Source: a virus
Virus record (IMG/VR): IMGVR_UViG_3300033145_000125
Location: 1 to 33,277 of that record
Length of the DNA stretch: 33,277 bases
Reading direction: 5' to 3' (one strand)
Part shown: piece after piece, positions 3,074-28,008 of the stretch
How positions within the stretch are numbered: position 1 is the first letter of the stretch
Layout of the letters: every line of letters begins with the position of its first letter
Translations under genes and position numbers: made by a program
Notes under the pieces: model-generated
What the model was told of the DNA's origin: nothing
Databases searched by the model: none
The model's input: only the letters and a program-made list of their open reading frames with translations

Positions 3074-3254
3074 CCGACAATGTGAGTGCTGTGGGTATCC
3101 CGCCAAACGGGGCATACTACCCATTATCTGGCCTGATCCCGATTCTGGACGGGACGTGTACTGTTCGGTATTTTGTTTCGAAAGTCGTATGAAGATGCGA
3201 CTGCCTGAACCTTACCGCACCCTCCACCTTGCCGCAGAGAAAGCAGCAGAATGA
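3066..3254 (+). CDS. Small zinc-finger protein, 62 aa
   Basis: Four cysteines in two pairs, CECCGYPAKRG near residue 6 and YCSVFCFESR near residue 32, form a treble-clef or zinc-ribbon-like site similar to the HNH-associated or FYVE-like knuckles common in phage small proteins. It lies directly before the SNF2 helicase and its stop overlaps the helicase ATG as ATGA, so a co-translated accessory role is plausible but unproven. Confidence 0.55.
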   Translation: MSNRQCECCGYPAKRGILPIIWPDPDSGRDVYCSVFCFESRMKMRLPEPYRTLHLAAEKAAE

Positions 3255-4648
3255 GCTATAAGCTGTTCGATCACCAAAAGAAGATGTTAGAGATCCTCAC
3301 AGAGAACGACCGATTCCTCTTACTCCCACAGACGGGAACTGGGAAGACGCTCCCGGCTGTTATCCACATGAGCAATCTCTACCTCGCGGGTGAGATCCAG
3401 AACGCACTCATCGTGGCACCATTATCAGGTCTTGGTGCGTGGTCGAGGGACATCAAGAAACTCACCCCCGAGAGACAAGAACTCATCTGGAAACATACTC
3501 GGTGTATCAACTACGCCAAACTCTCGCGCAACAAAGGTCGGTACCAGAAAGAGTGTTGGCAGCAGTGGGATCTCATCATGCTGGACGAGGGCCACGCCAT
3601 AGCCAAACCAACATCGAACCGTACCAAGTATTTTGTCGGTCGAGGTAAGACCCTAGGGCTTGCATCGAAAGCCCAGTATCGTTATATCATCACAGGGACG
3701 CTCATCAACAACAGCCGACTGGAGGACATCTGGTCTCCACTACGATTCCTGTACGACGAGGACTGGATGACCTGGGCTGATTTCAAGCGTAAGTATCTTG
3801 TGATGCGTAACCTCCCAGGGTCATACGCGCAGATAGTGGTCGGGTATCGGCACCGAGCGGAGTTGCTCGACCTCGTTGGGTCTTGCTCCTATCGGGTGCT
3901 CAAAAAGGACTGTCTCGACTTGCCCGAGGTGATGTCCGATGAGATCATCAAAGTACCGTTCGCTGCTGGTAAGAATACCGAGCCGTTCGTTAAGACGACA
4001 AAAGCTCTCTACGAGGACGCGCTTGACTCCTATGTCGAGGCGTTAGACATGGTGATGGACAATCCCCTGACCCGATTGCTCCGTATGCGTCAGATCGCCA
4101 CAGGACACATCAAAGAGTCTGACACTGGGGATGAGACAGGCAGACGGATGCGGGGTAAGACCTATCCGTTGAAATCGCACAAAGCCAAATATGTGATGGA
4201 GTTGATAGAGAACAACCAGCCGTACAAAACAGTGGTATTCTACAACTTCCGGGCTACCTGTTTGGCTCTTGAGAAGGCATTGAAGTCTAAGGGTGTCAAG
4301 TACGTGACGCTCAACGGAGACCAGAAGAACAAAAACATCTGGCAGGATTTCCAAGCAGATGACAGTATCAAGGTCATAGTGGTACAGTATCAGTCAGGGT
4401 CTCGTGCCATCGACTTGTTCGCGTCGAGTTACACCATCTACGTGGAGCCGACCGATAGCAGCGAGATGATGGAGCAGAGTCGAGCCAGGACTGACAGGTT
4501 CGGACAGACCGAGGCGTGTAACTATGTATTCCTGCTCACAGAAGGATCGGTGGAGGAGGACATGTACAAGAAGCTGGCTGGTCATCAGGACTTTGCAGAA
4601 CGCAGTTATCGTGAGATCACCCGGAGCCGAGTGAAAGGAGCCAAGTGA
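3251..4648 (+). CDS. SNF2-type superfamily II DNA helicase/translocase
   Basis: 465 residues, a compact SNF2-like ATPase. Visible motifs: Walker A as PQTGTGKT (K32), an unusual TGTGKT in place of DxGxGKT; Walker B DEGH at 112-115; motif III ITGT at 147-150; and motif VI QSRARTDRFGQ at 409-419, typical of SNF2 proteins. In phages such proteins work in replication fork remodelling or recombination, moving on double-stranded DNA without true unwinding. The C-terminal RecA lobe begins near KTVVFYNFRATCLALEKAL. There is no extra DNA-binding domain. It sits in a run of overlapping genes; the next ATG shares one base with its stop (TGATG). Confidence 0.9.
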   Translation: MSYKLFDHQKKMLEILTENDRFLLLPQTGTGKTLPAVIHMSNLYLAGEIQNALIVAPLSGLGAWSRDIKKLTPERQELIWKHTRCINYAKLSRNKGRYQKECWQQWDLIMLDEGHAIAKPTSNRTKYFVGRGKTLGLASKAQYRYIITGTLINNSRLEDIWSPLRFLYDEDWMTWADFKRKYLVMRNLPGSYAQIVVGYRHRAELLDLVGSCSYRVLKKDCLDLPEVMSDEIIKVPFAAGKNTEPFVKTTKALYEDALDSYVEALDMVMDNPLTRLLRMRQIATGHIKESDTGDETGRRMRGKTYPLKSHKAKYVMELIENNQPYKTVVFYNFRATCLALEKALKSKGVKYVTLNGDQKNKNIWQDFQADDSIKVIVVQYQSGSRAIDLFASSYTIYVEPTDSSEMMEQSRARTDRFGQTEACNYVFLLTEGSVEEDMYKKLAGHQDFAERSYREITRSRVKGAK

Positions 4649-5839: not shown

Positions 5840-5894
5840 TGAGGCACGGTTAGAAACTATAGTCACACGGAAGGGGATCGACGACCAAGCATGA
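5820..5894 (+). CDS. Possible 24-codon coupling ORF before the primase
   Basis: Reads MRTIVDDEARLETIVTRKGI followed by DDQA, and stops on the ATGA of the primase start. It fills the gap between the membrane miniprotein and the primase, whose own ribosome site (GGAAGGGG) is about 15 bases from the ATG and so suboptimal. Translation through this ORF could feed the primase start. The evidence is weak. Confidence 0.3.
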   Translation: MRTIVDDEARLETIVTRKGIDDQA

Positions 5895-8299
5895 CAGACT
5901 ATCACAACATACCCGAGACGCTGGCACAGACATCCAACTGGTTGTGTTTTAAGCTGACTGACACAGGCAAAGCCCGATTGGGCAAGCCGCCTGTGTCGCC
6001 AAAGACGGGTATCGTCTGCGCTAAGAACGATCCGACCACTTTCACCACCCTGGAGGAAGCCCTGGTCGGGATGGAACGGTATGATCTGGATGGTGTCGGG
6101 TTCGTTTTCACCGACGGGTTCGTCGCCATCGACCTGGATAATTGTTTCGATGATGACGGTATACTCTCTACCGTGGCGCAGGACATCTTCGACCATTTCA
6201 ATTGCTACTGGGAGTATTCCCCATCAGGTGAGGGTCTTCATGGCTTCATGTACGGAGAGAAGCCCAATGACCGAACGAAAGATTCCGCGCTAGGTATCGA
6301 GGTCTATGACGGCTTCAATTTTGTCACTGTCACTGGGGATCATGTCGAAGGTACCGAACCCGATGCGATACCGATGCAGGACGCACTGGATTGGCTCTAC
6401 GCTAAGTACCTACCACCCATCGTCGCACCGAACGCCGAGATACCTCCTGTGGAGCATGGAGAACGTACAGCGAAAGAATGGTGTGCGTTCGGGCTATCCA
6501 AAGACAAGAAACTGAAAGCGCTCTATCACGCCACCGACCACGACGGCGACGAGTCTTCTACTGATTTCGCGCTCCTCTCAAAACTGGCCTACTGGCTCAA
6601 TCGTGATACCGAGGCGATGGAAAAGGCGTTCAGAGCCTCACCTTGGGCGCGTACAAAAGACAAGATGCACACCAAGAAACTGGCGCGAGCCGACTACCTG
6701 CCTGATTCCGTGACGAAAGCGGCGGTACTCTGTTCAGTCACAGCGTATGAGACCTCCGCGCAGTATGAGACCAAGGCCATCCGATTCTTCAACCGCACCC
6801 CACAGGAGGACGGTACAGAGAAGCTGGCGTTGGACGAGTATACTGATCTGGGTAACGCGTCTGCCCTAGCCTCAGTGTTCGGAGAGGGGCTGTGCTACAC
6901 CGCCGAGTGGGGGTGGTGTTTCTTCACCGGACGTCGGTGGGAAATAGACGTACCCTATCGGGCGATGGAGGCTTCGCGGGACATCGCGCTAGGCCTGATG
7001 GTGAGTGCGAAAGAATGGCTGGAGACTATCCACGAGGAACTGGATGCAAATGGACTGGACGCTAACTCTGATGAGGGTAAGAAGCGGCTCAAACCTGCGA
7101 TGGAACTGTACAAACACGCGCTCAAAGCGCAAGGGGAACACGGTCTCACGGCGATGGTCGGGTTGAACAAGTCCTATATGATAGACTCAGCATCGACTTT
7201 CGACTGCGACCCCTGGCTGTTGAATGTCCCGACCGGAGTGGTGGATCTCAAGACGGGTGAACTGATGCCCCACGATGCACGGTATCGCTTGACTGCGATG
7301 ACCGCGTTAGCCCCAAAGAAGATGGAGACCCCGCTGTTCGATGCGTTTCTAGACACCGTGTTCTGTGGCGACGCAGACCTCATCGATTTCGTACAGAAAG
7401 CCATGGGTTCCGCACTCGTTGGTAAGGTTTATACGGAAAACCTAATCATAGCCAACGGTACGGGAGCCAACGGTAAGTCCACATTCTTCAGTACGCTGCA
7501 CCACATCCTGGGTGACTACGCCACGGGTATCGACCCAAATCTGTTCATGTCGTCCAAGACGAACGAGCAGCAGGTCGGTATGGCGATGCTCCAGGGTAAG
7601 CGTTTCGCTGTGGCGCAGGAGACCGAGGAGGGGCATCGTCTGAACTCCTCCATGCTCAAACGGCTGGTATCGACAGACCCGATGGTGGCGAAAAAGCTAT
7701 ACAAAGACCCCCACGAGTTCTTACCTATCCACATGCTCGTACTGTCTACGAACCATCTACCCAAAATATCATCGACCGACACGGGTACCTGGCGGCGTAT
7801 CGTGGTGCTTCCATTCGAGGCGACGATACCGCCCGAGGAGATCATCACTGACTTCCATTCTATCCTCATCGAGCGCGAGGGTGCGGGCATCCTCCAATGG
7901 GCTATCGAGGGCGCGGTCGCGTTCCACGCGGCTGGCTGCGACATCCCAGAGAAGCCCGCTGCGGTCGTGAGGGCATCGTCTGAGTATCGCTTGACCGAGG
8001 ACTGGTTGGCGAACTTCATGGGTGAATGCTGTTCGGTCGGAGACCCAAACGATAAGACTGTCTTTGTGAGGCACAATGACCTGTATCGTGTCTACCACCA
8101 ATGGGCTAAGAACAACGGGGAGTTCATCCGTTCGTCCAGTCTGTTCGGGAAAGGTATGCTCACTGGCGGGTGGCAGTATAAGCAGAAGTGGTATGACCCG
8201 GAGCGGAAAAGCACGACGAAGATCTGGTACGGCGTAGACCTTCTGGACGGCGGTAGGCGGTTCACACTCATCCAAGGCTCTGAAGGGACGGCGAAATGA
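5891..8299 (+). CDS. Primase-polymerase fused to D5/P4-type SF3 helicase
   Basis: 802 residues. The N-terminal part is an archaeo-eukaryotic primase-polymerase: metal-binding AIDLDNC (D81, D83), then SPSGEGLHGF (S112, H117), then GIEVYDGFNFVTVTG. This is the spacing of the NrS-1-like phage enzymes that make primers and extend them. Residues about 400-500 match the D5_N region before a helicase core. That core has Walker A GTGANGKST (523-531), Walker B FAVAQETEEG near 573-582, sensor 1 STNHLP near 617-622 and an arginine-finger-like TWRR near 632. It probably opens and primes the origin as a hexamer. The gene overlaps its downstream neighbour by 4 bases. Confidence 0.9.
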   Translation: MTDYHNIPETLAQTSNWLCFKLTDTGKARLGKPPVSPKTGIVCAKNDPTTFTTLEEALVGMERYDLDGVGFVFTDGFVAIDLDNCFDDDGILSTVAQDIFDHFNCYWEYSPSGEGLHGFMYGEKPNDRTKDSALGIEVYDGFNFVTVTGDHVEGTEPDAIPMQDALDWLYAKYLPPIVAPNAEIPPVEHGERTAKEWCAFGLSKDKKLKALYHATDHDGDESSTDFALLSKLAYWLNRDTEAMEKAFRASPWARTKDKMHTKKLARADYLPDSVTKAAVLCSVTAYETSAQYETKAIRFFNRTPQEDGTEKLALDEYTDLGNASALASVFGEGLCYTAEWGWCFFTGRRWEIDVPYRAMEASRDIALGLMVSAKEWLETIHEELDANGLDANSDEGKKRLKPAMELYKHALKAQGEHGLTAMVGLNKSYMIDSASTFDCDPWLLNVPTGVVDLKTGELMPHDARYRLTAMTALAPKKMETPLFDAFLDTVFCGDADLIDFVQKAMGSALVGKVYTENLIIANGTGANGKSTFFSTLHHILGDYATGIDPNLFMSSKTNEQQVGMAMLQGKRFAVAQETEEGHRLNSSMLKRLVSTDPMVAKKLYKDPHEFLPIHMLVLSTNHLPKISSTDTGTWRRIVVLPFEATIPPEEIITDFHSILIEREGAGILQWAIEGAVAFHAAGCDIPEKPAAVVRASSEYRLTEDWLANFMGECCSVGDPNDKTVFVRHNDLYRVYHQWAKNNGEFIRSSSLFGKGMLTGGWQYKQKWYDPERKSTTKIWYGVDLLDGGRRFTLIQGSEGTAK

Positions 8300-8538
8300 C
8301 CAAACGACACACTCCATTCGACGAACTCGACCCATTCGACAGTCCCTTAGATATAGTCGATGGATTCGATGGGTTCACATTGACCGATGTGGACAATGTG
8401 GAGGATGCGTGGTATAACAGTCTAGCATGTGATACCACGTTCTGCGAGTTCGGCTTTGGCGACGAGGATGGGCTGTGTGTCAGAGACCGATACGGGTGTC
8501 GAATAGAAGGATGTCCTTATGCGATACCAAACGAGTGA
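8296..8538 (+). CDS. Acidic Cys-rich small protein, 80 aa
   Basis: The N-terminal 45 residues are very acidic (DELDPFDSPLDIVDGFDGF). The C-terminal part has five Cys in about 30 residues, ending CRIEGCPYAIPNE. It overlaps the primase end (ATGA) and the following HNH gene by 20 bases. An acidic, DNA-mimic-like composition is notable, but no function can be assigned. No family recognised. Confidence 0.55.
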   Translation: MTKRHTPFDELDPFDSPLDIVDGFDGFTLTDVDNVEDAWYNSLACDTTFCEFGFGDEDGLCVRDRYGCRIEGCPYAIPNE

Positions 8539-9025
8539 GGTGTGGGTTGCGATTCCTTATTTTCCGACTTACCAGATTTCTACTCTGGGTCGATTTTGTG
8601 GGCCGAGAGGAATAAAGAAACTGGAAACTACACATCGGGGGTATTTGCGATCTTGTATATACCAGGGAAAACGAGGTAAACCAAAACATGTTGTGATTCA
8701 TCGGTTGGTTGCCGAGGCCTTTATTCCAAATTCAAAACACAAACCAGAAGTAAATCACATCAATTGCGACAAAACAGATAACCGAGTTGAGAATCTTGAG
8801 TGGGTCACAAGGAAAGAAAACGCAGCCCACGCACGTAAGTTTGGGTGCTATTCTCATGGGGAACAACGATACAACCATAAATTGACCGAACAGACTGTGC
8901 GTGAGATTCGGAACGCCAAGAACAAAACGCATCAACAATTGGCCGATGACTACGGTGTGGCGAAACCTACAATCACACAGGTTCTTACCGGCAGAAAATG
9001 GAAACATGTGACCGCAAATGGGTGA
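8519..9025 (+). CDS. HNH homing endonuclease with NUMOD4 module
   Basis: 168 residues. NUMOD4 signature at the start (EVWVAIPYFPTYQISTLGRF), HNH core HRLVAEAFIPN (H61) and VNHINCDKTDNRVENLEWVT (H80, N88, N92), and a C-terminal helix-turn-helix (LTEQTVREIR, then QLADDYGVAKPTITQVLTG) for site recognition. These are free-standing homing nucleases that spread into intron-less alleles of neighbouring phage genes. The DNA is visibly more A+T-rich than the flanking replication genes, consistent with recent arrival. AAGGA lies seven bases before the ATG, inside the preceding gene. Confidence 0.9.
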   Translation: MRYQTSEVWVAIPYFPTYQISTLGRFCGPRGIKKLETTHRGYLRSCIYQGKRGKPKHVVIHRLVAEAFIPNSKHKPEVNHINCDKTDNRVENLEWVTRKENAAHARKFGCYSHGEQRYNHKLTEQTVREIRNAKNKTHQQLADDYGVAKPTITQVLTGRKWKHVTANG

Positions 9026-9060
9026 TGTCCGTTCGCAGATCACAACTAAGGAGGAGACCG

Positions 9061-9351
9061 ATGAATCGACTTGATAATGGTTTGCCAGCAAACCAACTGA
9101 ATATAATCAACAAGATGAAGAAGGAGGGTACGCCGATACCGCTTTCTCAAATCATCGCAGCAGCGTTTATTTATGATACCATATATGACGGCATCTATCA
9201 CAATATTTTTACAGCCGAGCATGTTCTACTCATGGAAACGGTTTGTGAGACCGCAGCACATGAATGGAACTGTCAGGATCAGTCCGAAAATCTAGGTATC
9301 GCTCTCAAAGCACTCAATGCCTACCGCAAAGATAATGATATAGTCAACTGA
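9061..9351 (+). CDS. Hypothetical helical protein, 96 aa
   Basis: ATG 9061 follows AAGGAGGAGACCG, a strong ribosome site, so an in-frame start at 8998 inside the HNH gene is rejected. The product begins MNRLDNGLPANQLNIINKMK and is mostly helical with an aromatic middle (FIYDTIYDGIYHNIF). A+T-rich codons resemble the HNH gene before it rather than the polymerase after it, so the two may have moved together. No family recognised. Confidence 0.55.
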   Translation: MNRLDNGLPANQLNIINKMKKEGTPIPLSQIIAAAFIYDTIYDGIYHNIFTAEHVLLMETVCETAAHEWNCQDQSENLGIALKALNAYRKDNDIVN

Positions 9352-9367
9352 TTCGAGGTGTTTACAA

Positions 9368-12094
9368 ATGACACAGCAGAACTTATGGTTCTTCGATACT
9401 GAGACTTTCGCTCATGATTGGCTGTTCGTAGCAAAACGACAAAGCGATGGCGAGACCATCACCGTATGGAACGACAACGAGAGCGTTCAGGATTTCGTCG
9501 AGTTACTGAATCCAATCCTCTGCGGTTACAACACTAGTCACTACGACCAGTACATCTTGAAGGCTATCCTGTTGGACTGGGAACCGAAAGATGTGAAACG
9601 GGTCAATGACACCATCATCCACGAGGACGACCGTTCGTTGGTGTGGGCGTTATTCCAAGGCCATCCGTGGGTGGTTTTACCCCCAACGATAGATCTATGG
9701 CCCGATATCGTACCCCGCAAATCTCTCAAAGAGATCGAAGCCAATATCGGTATGGACATCGTAGAGTCCTCTGTATCGTTCGATATCGACAGACCACTCA
9801 CGGTTACCGAGCGCGACGAGGTGACACGCTACTGTAAGCATGATGTGGCGGCGACAGAGGCTCTCTACGCTTTGCGGTTCGACTATCTGAAAGCTAAATC
9901 AGACCTGTGTGAATTGCGCGACGTAGACCCGAATACGATGCTTCAGCATACCAACGCTCGTATCGTCTCGGAAGTGCTTGGCGCGACCAGACTTCCGAGT
10001 ATCCCGTATGAGGAATACGAGATACCAGACAATGTAAACCAGACGGCAATACCCCAAGAGGTCTTGGACTTCGTTCTGTCTGTGAATACTGACAATTGTA
10101 TGGACAATGCCGAGAAGATAGAATTCATGTTCCACGATTGCCCCACCGTCGTCGGTCTGGGCGGCATACACGCCGCCGTACCGTCCTACAAGGAGACTGC
10201 TGACGAGGATAGAGTCATCCTTCACCAAGATATCGGGTCATTCTACCCATCACTTATCATCAATAATGGTTACATGAGCCGCTCAGTGCCCGATGGCGGG
10301 CATTACAAGCAATTCTATGACCTCCGTATGCAAGCGAAGGCTGACGGCGATAAGGCGACCGCTGACGCCGCCAAACTGGTACTCAACACCACATACGGCA
10401 CGATGAAAGATACATACAACAAGATGTACGACCCGATGCAGGGTACAAGAGTCTGTCTGAGTGGACAGCTTTATATCTTGGATCTCATCGAGTTGTTATT
10501 TTTTGCGAGTTCCTATGCACCAAAGACTCAGCCGATGGGACTACAACTCATTCAACTTAACACTGACGGGTGGATCATATCTTGCGCCCGTAAACATGTG
10601 TGGCGAATATACGACGCTGTTGCTGTATGGAAAAGACGTACGGGGTTCACGGTGGACACCCACGAGATAGAGGTTATCGTTCAGGCAAACGTTAACAACT
10701 ACGTGATGCGTACCACCGAGGGTGTCGTCACGACTAAGGGTGGTGTCGTCACACATCACGCTGGCGGGGATTTCAAGTCCAACAGTAGGACTATCATAGA
10801 CAAGGCCGTGGTGGACTATCTGCTAGACGATGTTCCGTTGGAGAATACTATTCTTCAATGTGACGATATCGAGCGGTTCCAGATAGTAGCCAAAGCTGGA
10901 CGGATGTTTCAGAAGGTAGTGCATGGGTATCGTGTGGGTGTTAGTGAAAAAGAAGACCCGGCTAATATATTAGGGTTTGATGCCGAAGCTGAGACCCAAC
11001 GGTGTAACCGAGTCTATGCTACTACTGCCAAGAAGTACGGCGGCATATTCAAACTCAAGATAAAGGACGGAGAGGAGGTCGGACGGTCCAAGATCCCGCT
11101 TACCCCAGAGCATTGTTTTGTGGACAACGAGAACAAGTGGAAAGACATCGGGATCGACTTGACAACGCTCGACAAATCGTGGTATGTTGCTCTAGCTAAA
11201 AAGAAGGCCAAAGCATTTATCACCCGAGACAAAAAGGAGAAGGATCAAATGACAGAAACAGATGAGAAGACTAACGAACTAAAAGACGGCAAAGCAGCAC
11301 CGAAGGCGAAGCCAAAAGCAAAGGCAAAGAGCAAAGCCGCACCCAAGAAACTCACCTTCAAAGAGAAGTTGCCTCAACTTCAGATCGCTATGGCGAACGC
11401 AGCAAAGGGTGTCACATTCGATGGTGTTGTGTCGAATATCTCTTATGAGTATGCCGACACACAACAGTACAAAACTTGGCTTGCTTCCATATGCTCAGAG
11501 CTTGGTTTGATTTTCAAGTTGAACACCACAAGTGAATTTTTAGGTATCATCACCCCAGAAAGCAAAAACACACCGAGTTACGCAGTCCACGCAACAGGTT
11601 GGGTGACTATTACCGATGTTGAGTCAGACGAACACGAACACTATGATATCAGCGGTCTAGGCGTGAATGTCCAGGCTGGATACTGCGAAGGTGTAGCACA
11701 GACCAACGCGCTCCGCAATTTCATTCTTAACAACTACCTACTCGACAACAAGGGTCGTGACGGCGATGATGTCGGCATGAACGCCGATGACATCGGTAAG
11801 TCAGGTTACGTCTCTGGGGCTGAGAAGGCTCAGATCAAACAGGAGATATCTGACAAGAAGGCTGACGAGAAGAAGTACGCGACAGATATCTATGCCAAAG
11901 CACTCTACAAGAAGATAGTCGAAGCGCAGAAGACCAAACCGAAGTTCGGTGCGAAGATACTCAAGGAGCACTTCGAAACTGACGGCACACCGAAAATGGG
12001 CAAGAACGGCAAATCTACAATCCCCAAATCAACCGCCACGTTGGGATATGGCAAAGCCGAAGAGATCATTGCGGAAGGTGAAGCCGATGTCTGA
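9368..12094 (+). CDS. Family B DNA polymerase fused in frame to an ERF-like annealing protein
   Basis: 908 residues. Residues 1-627 are a compact family B polymerase. Exonuclease motifs: FDTETF (D10, E12), GYNTSHYD (N55, D60) and YCKHD (Y155, D159). Polymerase motifs: A is QDIGSFYPS (D288), B is KLVLNTTYG (K336, N340, Y343, G344) and C is LNTDG (D400). A GGIHAA motif at 265-270 lies between the two domains. After WYVALAKKKAKAFI, where polymerases of this type normally end, the frame continues through a Lys/Ala/Pro linker into an ERF-like domain (about 650-800) with the C-terminal signature SGLGVNVQAGYCEGVAQTNA. Met 628 has its own ribosome site, so a separate ERF product is likely as well. 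I know of no standard polymerase-ERF fusion. Confidence 0.88.
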   Translation: MTQQNLWFFDTETFAHDWLFVAKRQSDGETITVWNDNESVQDFVELLNPILCGYNTSHYDQYILKAILLDWEPKDVKRVNDTIIHEDDRSLVWALFQGHPWVVLPPTIDLWPDIVPRKSLKEIEANIGMDIVESSVSFDIDRPLTVTERDEVTRYCKHDVAATEALYALRFDYLKAKSDLCELRDVDPNTMLQHTNARIVSEVLGATRLPSIPYEEYEIPDNVNQTAIPQEVLDFVLSVNTDNCMDNAEKIEFMFHDCPTVVGLGGIHAAVPSYKETADEDRVILHQDIGSFYPSLIINNGYMSRSVPDGGHYKQFYDLRMQAKADGDKATADAAKLVLNTTYGTMKDTYNKMYDPMQGTRVCLSGQLYILDLIELLFFASSYAPKTQPMGLQLIQLNTDGWIISCARKHVWRIYDAVAVWKRRTGFTVDTHEIEVIVQANVNNYVMRTTEGVVTTKGGVVTHHAGGDFKSNSRTIIDKAVVDYLLDDVPLENTILQCDDIERFQIVAKAGRMFQKVVHGYRVGVSEKEDPANILGFDAEAETQRCNRVYATTAKKYGGIFKLKIKDGEEVGRSKIPLTPEHCFVDNENKWKDIGIDLTTLDKSWYVALAKKKAKAFITRDKKEKDQMTETDEKTNELKDGKAAPKAKPKAKAKSKAAPKKLTFKEKLPQLQIAMANAAKGVTFDGVVSNISYEYADTQQYKTWLASICSELGLIFKLNTTSEFLGIITPESKNTPSYAVHATGWVTITDVESDEHEHYDISGLGVNVQAGYCEGVAQTNALRNFILNNYLLDNKGRDGDDVGMNADDIGKSGYVSGAEKAQIKQEISDKKADEKKYATDIYAKALYKKIVEAQKTKPKFGAKILKEHFETDGTPKMGKNGKSTIPKSTATLGYGKAEEIIAEGEADV
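11236..11251 (+). promoter_or_regulatory. Internal ribosome site and start codon inside the polymerase-ERF frame
   Basis: AAAAAGGAGAAGG followed by ATG, with nine bases between GGAG and ATG. It lies exactly at the junction between the polymerase and ERF parts, where a stop codon would be expected. Confidence 0.6.
11249..12094 (+). CDS. ERF-like single-strand annealing protein from an internal start
   Basis: Same frame as the polymerase gene. GGAG at 11236-11239 lies nine bases before ATG 11249, and the product would begin MTETDEKTNELKDGKAAPKA, like an ordinary protein start. ERF-family proteins anneal complementary single strands during phage recombination. The domain runs from LTFKEKLPQLQIAMANA to about NNYLLDNKG, followed by a charged helical tail and GYGKAEEIIAEGEADV. 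The partner exonuclease is encoded at 12504. Whether the free form, the fusion or both are made cannot be told from sequence. Confidence 0.6.
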   Translation: MTETDEKTNELKDGKAAPKAKPKAKAKSKAAPKKLTFKEKLPQLQIAMANAAKGVTFDGVVSNISYEYADTQQYKTWLASICSELGLIFKLNTTSEFLGIITPESKNTPSYAVHATGWVTITDVESDEHEHYDISGLGVNVQAGYCEGVAQTNALRNFILNNYLLDNKGRDGDDVGMNADDIGKSGYVSGAEKAQIKQEISDKKADEKKYATDIYAKALYKKIVEAQKTKPKFGAKILKEHFETDGTPKMGKNGKSTIPKSTATLGYGKAEEIIAEGEADV

Positions 12095-12257: not shown

Positions 12258-12511
12258 TGGCTGAACTAACTCTGGTTCAAACCTGCTCGGCTATGCCAGA
12301 ACAATACGATGCGTTCGACGCTAATGGCGATAAGGTGGGTTATCTTCGATTTCGCTTCGGTGGTTTTACCGTGGTTTGCCCCGATGTCGGCGGAGAACTG
12401 GTATACTCGTGGGAAAGTGGAGACAGATGGCAAGGAGAACTTTTGCCAAAAGAACACATAATCAACGCTCTTGACGCAATTTCAGATTGGATGGAGGCCG
12501 ACAATGGCTAA
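12254..12511 (+). CDS. Hypothetical protein, 85 aa
   Basis: Starts MMAELTLVQTCSAMPEQYDAF on an ATGA overlap with the upstream stop. The centre is beta-rich with an aromatic/glycine motif (YLRFRFGGFTVVCPDVGGEL), then a C-terminal helix (IINALDAISDWMEAD). It looks like a small all-beta fold with one helix. No family recognised. It overlaps the exonuclease start by 8 bases. Confidence 0.5.
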   Translation: MMAELTLVQTCSAMPEQYDAFDANGDKVGYLRFRFGGFTVVCPDVGGELVYSWESGDRWQGELLPKEHIINALDAISDWMEADNG

Positions 12512-13547
12512 GTTCAAGCCCTGGGAGTACGCAGGCAAGAACACGATATGTGTTCAAGGTGAGCCTACGTCGAATCCCAAGAAGATCACCGGGACGCGCC
12601 TGGGTGCTGTCCTGGGTCTCAACAAATGGAAGTCTGAGTTCGGCGCGTGGTGTGAGATATGTCGCGTGGCCGAGGAGCCGTTCGAGGGTAACAAGTATAC
12701 CGAGGCTGGTATAGCCATCGAGCCTAAACTGATTGAGTGGTGCAAAGAGAACGTCAGTCCGTACATTTATACCCCCGAGGAGTGGTTCAAAAGCAAAACG
12801 AAACTTTATGACCACTTCCCTTCGGAACCCATCTTCGGTGGTATGTGGGATGGCATCATACTGGACGATGTTCTGGGCAAAGGTGAACCTATCGGTGTCA
12901 TCGAGGGCAAGACCTCATCCCGCCCGCAGGACTGGGTAGACGGAGTGCCGCCGACCTACGCCGCACAGGGTCTCGAATATGCCCAGTTACTCGGAGTCGA
13001 TAGGGTGTTCTTCCCTGTCAGGTTCATGGAGCCAGACGAGTACGACCACCCCGAGAAGTGCGAATGTACTAGCGACAACACACACCTTTACGACATCCAC
13101 GTATCAGACACAGACATCGAAGCCGATCTACGCCGAGCGGAATTGTGGCACAAGAAGCATGTCGCTGGTAACGTCTCACCAAAGTTCAACGAGAAGCGCG
13201 ACAAGGTGTTCCTAGATATCCTCCGCAAAAGCGAGGTCAAGGACACTGACCTTGAGGAATTGGCAAAAGAAGTCGCTACCATCGAGACCAAGATAGAGAA
13301 GATACTATCGAAATCAGAATTGACGGATCTCGAAAAGCAACTCAAGAAACTCAAGGGTAAGATGAAGCCCGCGATGGTCAAGTTGTTCGGCAAAAATGAC
13401 ACGGCTATCACTGCCTATGGTTGGCAGATGAAGAAAAGCAGCAGGTCAGAGGTTGACAAGGAGGCGTTGCGAAAGGACAACTTGTTGGACAAGTACAGCA
13501 AAGTTTCTGACACGTACAGACTATCTAAGGAGAAGACAAATGACTAG
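12504..13547 (+). CDS. YqaJ-type viral recombinase (5'-3' exonuclease, PD-(D/E)XK)
   Basis: 347 residues from ATG 12504, chosen because GGAGG sits seven bases upstream and because the longer frame runs through the preceding gene. Nuclease signature: ITGTRLGAVLGLNKW near 28-42, E73 (AIEP), D116 (GGMWDG), E134-x-K136 (VIEGK) and Q155...Y159. This order fits the lambda-exonuclease-like YqaJ family, which resects double-strand ends to give 3' overhangs. The C-terminal third adds a charged coiled coil (ATIETKIEKILSKSELTDLE) longer than the core family. It acts with the ERF-like annealing protein encoded just upstream. Confidence 0.9.
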   Translation: MAKFKPWEYAGKNTICVQGEPTSNPKKITGTRLGAVLGLNKWKSEFGAWCEICRVAEEPFEGNKYTEAGIAIEPKLIEWCKENVSPYIYTPEEWFKSKTKLYDHFPSEPIFGGMWDGIILDDVLGKGEPIGVIEGKTSSRPQDWVDGVPPTYAAQGLEYAQLLGVDRVFFPVRFMEPDEYDHPEKCECTSDNTHLYDIHVSDTDIEADLRRAELWHKKHVAGNVSPKFNEKRDKVFLDILRKSEVKDTDLEELAKEVATIETKIEKILSKSELTDLEKQLKKLKGKMKPAMVKLFGKNDTAITAYGWQMKKSSRSEVDKEALRKDNLLDKYSKVSDTYRLSKEKTND

Positions 13548-13950
13548 CACAGTCACAGGTAGAGGCAAGCCGAAGAACAACTATGATATGGATGAAGGCG
13601 AGCAGAGTTTCCTCATCACGAAGGTCACAGGGCTTCCCCGAGCGGAAGTTACCAACGTCAAGGTCGAGTTCGTCAACGAGGACGGCGCACAACTCGAAAA
13701 TAACTACGACCTGGATGTCAAGGGTGGCTATGCTGCGTTCTACTGGCTCGTGAAGAACGGTCTGGGCGTGGACCTGGATGTGGGCGAGCAGTTCGATCTA
13801 GCTAATTTAGAAGGCCGGTTCGTCCTGCTCGACATCATCCACAAGCCTCGTGAGGCAGGCGGTGTGTTCAACAATATCAAGAGCACCGTAGGCCCAGGCA
13901 CACCGTTCGGTGATGCCGCATCGGGCGACGATTGGGACGACGAGGACTAG
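13540..13950 (+). CDS. SSB-like protein with acidic tail (DUF669-like)
   Basis: 136 residues, starting at ATG 13540 after AAGGAGAAGACA and overlapping the exonuclease stop. The body reads as a beta-barrel-like domain (FLITKVTGLPRAEVTNVKVE, then GGYAAFYWLVKNGLGVDLD, then LANLEGRFVLLDIIHKP). The protein ends in ASGDDWDDED, an acidic tip like those SSB proteins use to recruit partners. Phages with ERF and YqaJ proteins commonly carry a DUF669-type single-strand-binding gene here. The assignment rests on that pattern and position, not on catalytic residues. Confidence 0.6.
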   Translation: MTSTVTGRGKPKNNYDMDEGEQSFLITKVTGLPRAEVTNVKVEFVNEDGAQLENNYDLDVKGGYAAFYWLVKNGLGVDLDVGEQFDLANLEGRFVLLDIIHKPREAGGVFNNIKSTVGPGTPFGDAASGDDWDDED

Positions 13951-14892: not shown

Positions 14893-16854
14893 CTAGTATG
14901 GATCTTCGACGACGGTGTATTCGCCGTCGGTAGCACCGTTGAATTTACGTCTGATTGCAGTAACGATGACGGGAATGCCATCAGGCACAGCCAGTGTGTC
15001 TAGCTTCACCCTATCGCCTACTTCTATAGCGGGGTCGTCCCGCATACTGAACTTGTAACTCATAGCTGTCTTGAAAGTGTGGTATCGGTCGTACATCGCC
15101 AGAGCCATCGTTCGGTCAGACGCTATCGGATTGTCGAAATCCTTAGTCTCACCTCTGACCGTATCGTAGGTCTTGGACAGTTGACTCTCACCGAAAGTCA
15201 CCGCGTTGCCCGAAAGGACTAGTGTGAACGTGCCGACAAAATCGGGCGTAGCATCGAATGTCGTGCTGTAGGTGTTGTATGTCGGAGATCCGTTCAGAGT
15301 GGCATCCGTAAGTTCTAACGAGCCGCCAGAGCAGGGGTCATGCGTGATTGTGAATGTAGTCTGGTCGGTGGTGACAGCTTCAATAGCTGCTTCCATTATC
15401 GTAGTGCTGCCTACTGCTGTGTTATAGGTACGTAGTTTTCCTTGTATGGTGGTGACGTTCTCACCTTTGATAGTTTCTGGACGGTCGTAGATACGGTCGA
15501 TGTCCAGATGGTAGTCCAGCGCCGAACCGAGGTCTGGTACGATATCCAACGAGCCGTCAGAGCGATGGAGCAGATGTGCCCCACAGTATGCTGCGAGCAT
15601 CGTCAAGGCTTTCCTATGCGTTACCGGGGGAATTGGTATGTCTACCATCACGGTGTCGAAAGCCGAGTCGATGTGATAGTAGTCGTAGCCAGTGCGCTCC
15701 CAGATCAAAGTAGTGTCTGAGGCTACGCACCCAGCGTCGCCTATGACGTAGCCCCAATCCCCCTCTGCGGGAAAATCCACATCGTCTAGCACTTCTGCGA
15801 ACAGTGTAGACGCGGCTATACCACCCCCGTCATACCGTCCACCGTAGAAAATGTTAGTGTCCAGCCAAGTAGTGAAAGATTCCCCCTGAACTGTCAGGTA
15901 CTTGTCGTCTTTGGATATCTTACTTTCCGTGAATTTCTGACGAGTGATGGGGATGTTATCGAAATCCCCCGCGCTGTAGAAGTATCCTAAGCCCGCGTCG
16001 ATGAAGCCTGATTTCTGTAGTTCCAGCTTCATATACGGATTGGTAAAATCGTAAGGGTTTGGGGTGGCGGTATAGAGCCTGCCCCCGCCGATTCCGGCGA
16101 TGAGATGCGACCCGTCAGAGTCAGAGGCTACGACGCTCCAACCCTCAGTCCCTTCTTCGGCTGGCTGACGGTCAGTCCAAGTAACTCCGCCGTTGGCAGA
16201 AGTGTGGAGTATGCCTACGTTGTTTGCCACGATGAGATTAGACCCGTCAGAGTCAGAGGCTACGGAAGCCCAGCCCGCCGTCCCATCAACGCCTGTGGGC
16301 CGACGCTCAGTCCAGGTGACTCCGCTATCGTCGGAGGTGTAGAGTCTGCCAGCCCATTTTCCCGCGATGAGATGCGACCCATCAGAGTCAGAGGCTACGG
16401 TATTCCAGTTCCCGGCTACAGCTTCAACGGGATGACGGTTAGTCCAAGTGGCCCCACTATCGTCGGAGATATAAAGTTTGTCAACCGAAGCTGCCGCGAT
16501 AAGATTAGACCCGTCAGAATCAGAGGCTACAGCATACCAGTCCTCGTCTGCATCCCCGGCTGGCTGGCGCTCAGTCCAGTTGGCTCCGCTATCGTCGGAG
16601 GTGTAGAGCCTGCCCCCGCCGATTCCGGCGATGAGATGCGACCCATCAGAATCAGAGGCTACGACGCTCCAGCCCTTGTCCGCATCCCCGGCTGGCTGGC
16701 GCTCAGTCCAGTTGGCTCCGCTATCGTCGGAGGTGTAGAGTCTGCCACCATAAACCCCGGCGATGAGGTTGCGACCATTTGCCTCAGAGGAAGACGCTAA
16801 GGCCCACCAGTCCTTGTCTACATCCCCTGCGGGCCGACGCTCAGTCCAGATCAT
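14893..16854 (-). CDS. Tail-tip protein with N-terminal six-bladed Asp-box propeller
   Basis: 653 residues. Residues 1 to about 265 hold six blades of 44-46 residues with repeating VASDSDGSHLIAG and Asp-box SDDSGANW (T41, T85, I129, T173, T219; the sixth lacks it). The opening MIWTERRP has the sequence of a blade end, so it probably closes the ring with the last GGRLYTA. Asp-box propellers occur in sialidases and sortilin-like proteins; here there is no sialidase active site. Residues about 270-653 (KLELQKSGFIDAGLGYFYSA, then VGDRVKLDTLAVPDG near the end) resemble siphovirus Gp37-like tail-associated proteins. The propeller may bind glycans at the tail tip. The start is preceded by AAGGAG. 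Confidence 0.78.
   Translation of the reverse strand: MIWTERRPAGDVDKDWWALASSSEANGRNLIAGVYGGRLYTSDDSGANWTERQPAGDADKGWSVVASDSDGSHLIAGIGGGRLYTSDDSGANWTERQPAGDADEDWYAVASDSDGSNLIAAASVDKLYISDDSGATWTNRHPVEAVAGNWNTVASDSDGSHLIAGKWAGRLYTSDDSGVTWTERRPTGVDGTAGWASVASDSDGSNLIVANNVGILHTSANGGVTWTDRQPAEEGTEGWSVVASDSDGSHLIAGIGGGRLYTATPNPYDFTNPYMKLELQKSGFIDAGLGYFYSAGDFDNIPITRQKFTESKISKDDKYLTVQGESFTTWLDTNIFYGGRYDGGGIAASTLFAEVLDDVDFPAEGDWGYVIGDAGCVASDTTLIWERTGYDYYHIDSAFDTVMVDIPIPPVTHRKALTMLAAYCGAHLLHRSDGSLDIVPDLGSALDYHLDIDRIYDRPETIKGENVTTIQGKLRTYNTAVGSTTIMEAAIEAVTTDQTTFTITHDPCSGGSLELTDATLNGSPTYNTYSTTFDATPDFVGTFTLVLSGNAVTFGESQLSKTYDTVRGETKDFDNPIASDRTMALAMYDRYHTFKTAMSYKFSMRDDPAIEVGDRVKLDTLAVPDGIPVIVTAIRRKFNGATDGEYTVVEDPY
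16076..16800 (-). repeat. DNA repeats encoding propeller blades
   Basis: Units of about 132-138 bases. Stretches around 16076-16112 and 16608-16644 are base-identical, and their flanks are nearly so, four units apart. Adjacent blades at about 16560-16740 are also almost identical. Such identity points to recent duplication or conversion within the gene. Confidence 0.8.
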
Positions 16855-27105: not shown

Positions 27106-28008
27106 TTACTCGTAGAACGTGCCGTCTGGCGCGGTGAATGAACCATCCACAGCGATTACTGGATAGAGTGAGAAGTTGCCGTTCGGCTGTACATAGAAAA
27201 CACCAAAACCGTTCACCCAAGCGTTTGGATGATTGCGGCGATAATGGGGGTTTATCTTACAGGCACAGGGGAGCTGGGTCGCTGTGTGAGATTCTACATC
27301 CAACGGCGCGGTAAGTGTATGTGCCTGATAGGTATGCCCATGCCCATAGGCTACGTTTCGAGCGTAGACCTGGGCTGTCTTGTACGCATTGTGGATATTG
27401 ATGTATGTTCCGTGAGTGAAATACAACTTACCGACTTTGGCGACTTCACCGTAATCGTAGACAGCCCAGTTATCGAGTGGTAGATTGTTTCGTATCTCGA
27501 AGAATCCTTCCACCTCTGGATGTTCATCTATGTATTGCTCAACCCAATCTTCGTGATTGCCTAATAGGTATATACGTTCGGTATCGTCGCCGAGGATGTC
27601 GTCGATAGGTGCGAGGACATCCTTCGTGAAGCGGGTATAGTCTCTCTTGAGTCTCTGGCCTTCTACTCTCCGTCGCTTGTTTCCGACCCAATGACTTATG
27701 ACCTCCAGATCTTGATTATCACCACCGAAAACGAATACGTCGGGTTCAAATGCGTCCGTAAATGCTAAGATATTATGCCATAACTTACTGTGATGGTGTG
27801 GGTGGTGAAGATCGAACACCGCAATACCTTTGCGGAGAGTGATAGGCTCTGGTCGTCCACCGAACCAATCAAGACCTATGAGTTCTGGGTCTTTCTTGGC
27901 TTTGCGTATCATCCTGCGGGCATTGGCCCCGTCGATGCCCAATCGTCTACCTAATTCTTCCCCACTGAGGGGAGCATACTTTTTCCATTGTGCTGCTGTG
28001 ATGTTCAA
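27106..28008 (-). CDS. Calcineurin-like metallophosphoesterase with N-terminal HTH
   Basis: 300 residues. The N-terminal 40 residues form a helix-turn-helix (LSGEELGRRLGIDGANARRM). The catalytic domain has all metal motifs: FDLHHP (D66, H68), GGDNQD (D97), GNHED (N151, H152), YFTHG (H199) and GHGH (H223, H225). Such enzymes act on phosphodiesters, including nucleic acids; a similar gene occurs between terminase and portal in several siphoviruses. The HTH suggests DNA binding, so packaging-linked nuclease activity is possible but unproven. AAGGAGG lies nine bases before the start. Confidence 0.85.
   Translation of the reverse strand: MNITAAQWKKYAPLSGEELGRRLGIDGANARRMIRKAKKDPELIGLDWFGGRPEPITLRKGIAVFDLHHPHHHSKLWHNILAFTDAFEPDVFVFGGDNQDLEVISHWVGNKRRRVEGQRLKRDYTRFTKDVLAPIDDILGDDTERIYLLGNHEDWVEQYIDEHPEVEGFFEIRNNLPLDNWAVYDYGEVAKVGKLYFTHGTYINIHNAYKTAQVYARNVAYGHGHTYQAHTLTAPLDVESHTATQLPCACKINPHYRRNHPNAWVNGFGVFYVQPNGNFSLYPVIAVDGSFTAPDGTFYE

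Follow-up and report, generated by a model that had tools for sequence, protein, structure and literature searches.

Phage annealing proteins are thought to hand annealed ends to a DNA polymerase, although the manner of this handover is unsettled, and their usual partner is a RecE-like exonuclease. Annealing proteins of the Rad52 type act as many-copy rings or filaments. A further arrangement relevant here is the in-frame nested start, as in phage lambda C/Nu3 and T7 4A/4B, which yields a shorter C-terminal protein. Helix length separates the annealing folds, with 15-20 residues in Rad52, Erf and Sak3 as opposed to 26-32 in RecT or Red-beta (PMC11783212), and two reports describe Red-beta and RecT as rings or filaments (PMC9512822, PMC9772228).

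The closest described counterpart of the locus reported here is in Eggerthella phage EL753P1 (OP172808), whose genes 36 and 35, annotated as hypothetical proteins only, contain both domains of our query (96% of its length, 39% identity). In EL753P1 these are separate genes, a polymerase at 8001-9998 and an annealing gene at 10002-10826, lying in the same frame as each other such that the polymerase ends in ...EGKD-TGA and a single codon precedes the annealing-gene ATG. More distant are the small family B polymerases of PHROG 1252 from Paenibacillus phage LincolnB, Weissella phage PWc and Enterococcus phages, which are 28-32% identical to the polymerase part of our query but have no annealing domain attached and are followed by a different type of gene.

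Results

A polymerase and a putative annealing protein share one open frame

The DNA analyzed here (the window) is the 33,277-nucleotide IMG/VR record IMGVR_UViG_3300033145_000125. Its gene content is that of a tailed phage, with terminase, portal, head and tape-measure genes on the minus strand and replication genes on the plus strand. The preliminary description had claimed that a polymerase runs into a second domain without a stop, and we indeed observed 908 codons from ATG to stop with no internal stop on the plus strand at 9368..12094, encoding a 908-residue protein in which polymerase residues 1-627 (9368..11248) are followed by 281 residues of a putative annealing protein (11249..12094). 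At the joint, this strand carries an internal ATG (11249..11251, residue 628), the candidate start codon of a stand-alone annealing protein, and a Shine-Dalgarno sequence, AGGAG (11235..11239), nine bases before it. Both elements are invariant in the 11 fused contigs described below; the GGAG (11236-11239) reported earlier is present, and conservation marks it as no chance occurrence. Directly after the ATG is a variable Lys/Ala/Pro-rich linker (11252..11353) of low predicted order (pLDDT about 24-34), for which alone we used a full-length fold of pLDDT 42.

The polymerase is complete ahead of the joint, given that PHROG 1252 matches residues 1-626 at E 3e-131 and spans them nearly end to end (profile positions 49-660 of 663). 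Exonuclease residues D10, E12, Y155 and D159 and polymerase residues D288, K336, N340, Y343, G344 and D400 are invariant across the 8 full-length fused genes, bearing out the earlier assignment of a complete family B polymerase from D10/E12, D288 and D400. Pfam returned no match for the window protein, while the EL753P1 polymerase reached DNA_pol_B at 4.6e-05 (22.8 bits vs a cut-off of 23); the polymerase profile found no match among PDB sequences.

Elsewhere in the window we noted a SNF2-type helicase of 465 residues in the early region (3251-4648), a metallo-phosphoesterase within the head and packaging block (27106-28008; PHROG 221, E 5e-22), and, adjoining the tail genes on the minus strand (14893-16854), a 653-residue protein with BNR/sortilin-like repeats that is possibly receptor-binding or glycan-binding.

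The fusion is kept by distant relatives and appears to have arisen once

Scans of IMG/VR identified 12 contigs that share the arrangement, 10 of them mutually distinct (L004 is identical to L006, and L005 to L008), and the frame is open across the joint in every fused contig. Most of these contigs are 64-67% identical to the window in DNA, with up to 69% in the best-aligned part, and synonymous sites of the fused genes are saturated. Values of dN are 0.24-0.28 for the polymerase, 0.29-0.44 for the annealing core and 0.45-0.86 for the linker. The preliminary description had weighed a tethered polymerase against the loss of a stop through mutation or sequencing error, the latter to be suspected if every close relative carried the two as separate genes. 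Instead, 10 further distinct contigs retain both the fusion and the joint start, which favors the tether, and the split arrangement was found solely in the more distant EL753P1.

Among 50,697 phage records, EL753P1 was the only match covering at least 80% of the query, and tblastn of phages with the annealing domain at E values up to 10 yielded nothing besides it. No relatives of EL753P1 were found in IMG/VR. In the tree, the fused genes form a single group (support 96/98) that requires one change in 97% of bootstrap trees; the nearest row outside this group is EL753P1, at a weak fork (81/78). The simplest history is that the fusion arose once, from two abutting in-frame genes that would have lost the lone stop between them a single time.

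No further copies of the fused gene were detected in 84,980 reference genomes, and the carriers are a phage group known from environmental DNA only. The window itself was binned, as contig 107, into a bacterial draft genome of 2.8 Mb, which is no proof that this bacterium is the host. A scan of 395 genomes of the same phylum revealed no copy, close relatives of the draft genome lack a comparable gene, and 100 relatives gave two polymerase matches, both weak and partial.

One contig is peculiar. In L009:843-1487 the polymerase frame closes with NNYVLRFV and a stop codon, right past which a Mom-like DNA-modification gene (PF25680, E 2e-45) starts and continues in frame into the remaining polymerase and the annealing domain. 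Either insertion of a Mom gene has split the polymerase or the contig was wrongly assembled; with its polymerase interrupted in this way, the L009 lineage may be without an intact fused protein.

The tether appears to be under selection

We considered whether the separate annealing protein is the only product that matters, with the fused form a tolerated, functionless by-product of the lost stop. The strong, invariant ribosome site at the joint is compatible with this reading, as is the fact that the split arrangement functions in EL753P1. To be set against it is the absence of new stops. Using a rate matrix from fourfold sites of the polymerase (tree length 5.26 substitutions per site), approximately 8.6 stop gains would be expected in codons 619-627 over the tree under neutrality, and none was observed (Poisson probability ~2e-4), a rough figure that disregards selection on the last polymerase residues and on the ribosome site. 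Stops at codons 620, 622, 623, 625 or 627 would spare the AGGAG, and these account for approximately 7.4 of the expected gains. The tether itself therefore looks selected, and we regard a functionless fusion as unlikely.

The C-terminal domain is predicted to adopt a Rad52/ERF-type fold

Sequence profiles do not recognize the C-terminal part, which had no match among Pfam, PHROG, NCBIfam and PDB-sequence profiles. A search for ERF (PF04404; 12 members searched, Pfam E up to 10) gave no match, and hhalign of the domain to five ERF proteins returned a probability of 0.2%, which is not significant. The preliminary description had called the domain ERF-like and had named a missing ERF profile match as evidence to the contrary. 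That outcome is what we obtained, hhalign included, and so the label holds only in part: it fails by sequence profile and is to be understood as the Rad52/ERF-superfamily type of the predicted fold.

A model built from 11 sequences (mean pLDDT 65, core residues mostly 70-90) shows three long strands and, after them, a helix of 18 residues. This helix length agrees with Rad52, Erf and Sak3 and not with RecT or Red-beta (PMC11783212). In Foldseek searches of viral models, annealing, ERF and Rad52 proteins lead (E 2e-7 to 1e-3), while a plain Foldseek search of the PDB returned nothing below an E of 0.001. Upon structural re-ranking of PDB entries, Rad52 occupied the best ten rows (Z 7.0-7.9, ~114 residues aligned), followed by Mgm101, with phage Sak lower. 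The best alignment, of the helix-across-sheet core (11345..11737, model residues 33-163) to human Rad52, has a Z of 7.9, which falls inside the range reachable by unrelated matches. The domain is thus predicted to share the three-stranded sheet and crossing helix of 15-20 residues that mark the Rad52/ERF/Sak3 superfamily (PMC11783212, PMC8093625) and, unlike that superfamily, is unrecognized by family profiles and fused to a polymerase. Given that the predicted fold matches where sequence profiles fail, the model places the domain in the Rad52/ERF superfamily by fold rather than in the ERF family.

The neighboring genes form the same replication module in EL753P1, where the order is likewise primase-helicase, polymerase, annealing protein and RecE-like exonuclease. 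On the plus strand of the window, a primase/D5-type helicase (5891..8299; Pfam D5_N E 4e-23, PHROG 1829) lies upstream of the fused frame, and a YqaJ/RecE-like exonuclease (12504..13547; Pfam YqaJ 1.4e-05, PHROG 434 2e-26) lies downstream at a position alike to that in EL753P1. The annealing gene is therefore encoded beside a recombination exonuclease, as expected of the Rad52/ERF superfamily. The next gene on this strand (13540..13950), with no PHROG or Pfam match, is a guess at a single-strand-binding protein from its acidic tail, DDWDDED. Two side observations concern this module. The exonuclease also resembles two mycoplasma families, MAGa7180 (E 1e-35) and MPN551 (E 1e-30), with both matches short of the family cut-offs, which hints at an ancient connection between mycoplasma nucleases and phage RecE-like enzymes; and between the primase-helicase and the polymerase, at 8519-9025, is an HNH endonuclease that combines a NUMOD4-like part with a helix-turn-helix and looks like a free-standing homing endonuclease.

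The C-terminal domain could instead be some other accessory, serving for instance in processivity or in single-strand binding. Profiles of known families leave room for this by giving no match, as does a fold model that is only moderately confident, but the ten leading Rad52 rows, the annealing and ERF proteins at the head of the viral library and the RecE-like exonuclease gene directly downstream all weigh against it, and we give it little credence. A Rad52/ERF-superfamily annealing protein is the best reading of the model.

The joint carries a conserved putative internal start

Pairing of the joint site with the 16S rRNA tail is uniformly strong, at -8.9 to -9.3 kcal/mol (mean -9.2) in all 11 fused contigs, whereas other conserved in-frame ATGs (common to at least 6 of 8 genes) have mean pairing of -3.7 or weaker. 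Wherever a polymerase start was readable in a contig, the joint site is also stronger than the polymerase's own (-1.9 to -7.2), the polymerase start codons in this comparison being our own assignment. The joint ATG aligns with the start of the separate annealing gene in EL753P1. A synonymous scan with wider windows revealed mild constraint at the joint (ratio 0.63-0.78), where the windows do not rank with the lowest of the gene, and for this reason the case for a ribosome site is built on the invariance of AGGAG and its pairing energy.

It is also conceivable that the fused protein alone is made and that the internal site is an unused relic or an effect of Lys/Glu codons, given that the fused genes favor AAG and GAG. 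This we consider very unlikely: pairing of -9 kcal/mol persists in 11 of 11 contigs, including the group in which residue 623 has changed from Lys to Glu with AGGAG unchanged, no other conserved in-frame ATG has comparable pairing, and 100 kDa subunits alone would make for a crowded ring. The joint thus bears the conserved start codon and ribosome site of a putative in-frame internal translation start, from which, we infer, the annealing part can also be made alone. As in lambda C/Nu3 and T7 4A/4B, one frame with two starts would give two products; the fused gene differs in that its two parts are whole proteins, formerly separate genes.

Finally, loss of the stop through an error of sequencing or assembly, or through a private mutation of recent date, has virtually no chance of being the explanation, since, despite the stop at the corresponding place in EL753P1, it is excluded by 10 further distinct contigs from separate metagenomes that hold the frame open at saturated synonymous divergence.

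Discussion

Our analysis indicates that the fusion is genuine and conserved, and it is apparently undescribed in the literature and databases searched; the literature search found no polymerase-annealing protein fusion of this type. The parts are already known; what is new is that they are covalently joined and keep a nested start. Overall, we think it probable that loss of a stop fused a family B polymerase to a Rad52/ERF-type annealing protein, that the nested start was kept, and that tethered subunits deliver the polymerase.

Because the annealing gene's ribosome site was retained in frame, two products are expected: the annealing protein alone, of about 31 kDa, and a polymerase-linker-annealing protein of about 100 kDa, which would be the minor form. 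With the joint site the stronger, the 31 kDa annealing protein is likely more abundant. The strong internal start would provide free subunits in large number, and the full frame a small number that bear the polymerase; most likely, these few tethered subunits would enter rings built mostly from free subunits. Such a mixed ring could anneal an end resected by the neighboring exonuclease, whereby the polymerase would already be present at the annealed 3' end and could extend it in recombination-dependent replication. Dual expression, mixed rings and polymerase delivery are all inferred. The more specific proposal of a natural tether between polymerase and annealing ring, in which the second start fixes the balance between free and polymerase-bearing subunits and annealing delivers the polymerase to the primer end, is one that we advance tentatively, at a little under even chances.

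That a covalent link has been retained over such long divergence argues that both proteins act at one place. The fusion could physically couple strand annealing with DNA synthesis, and it affords a direct test of the handover from annealing protein to polymerase. It also offers a lead toward genome-editing annealing proteins that carry an attached polymerase.
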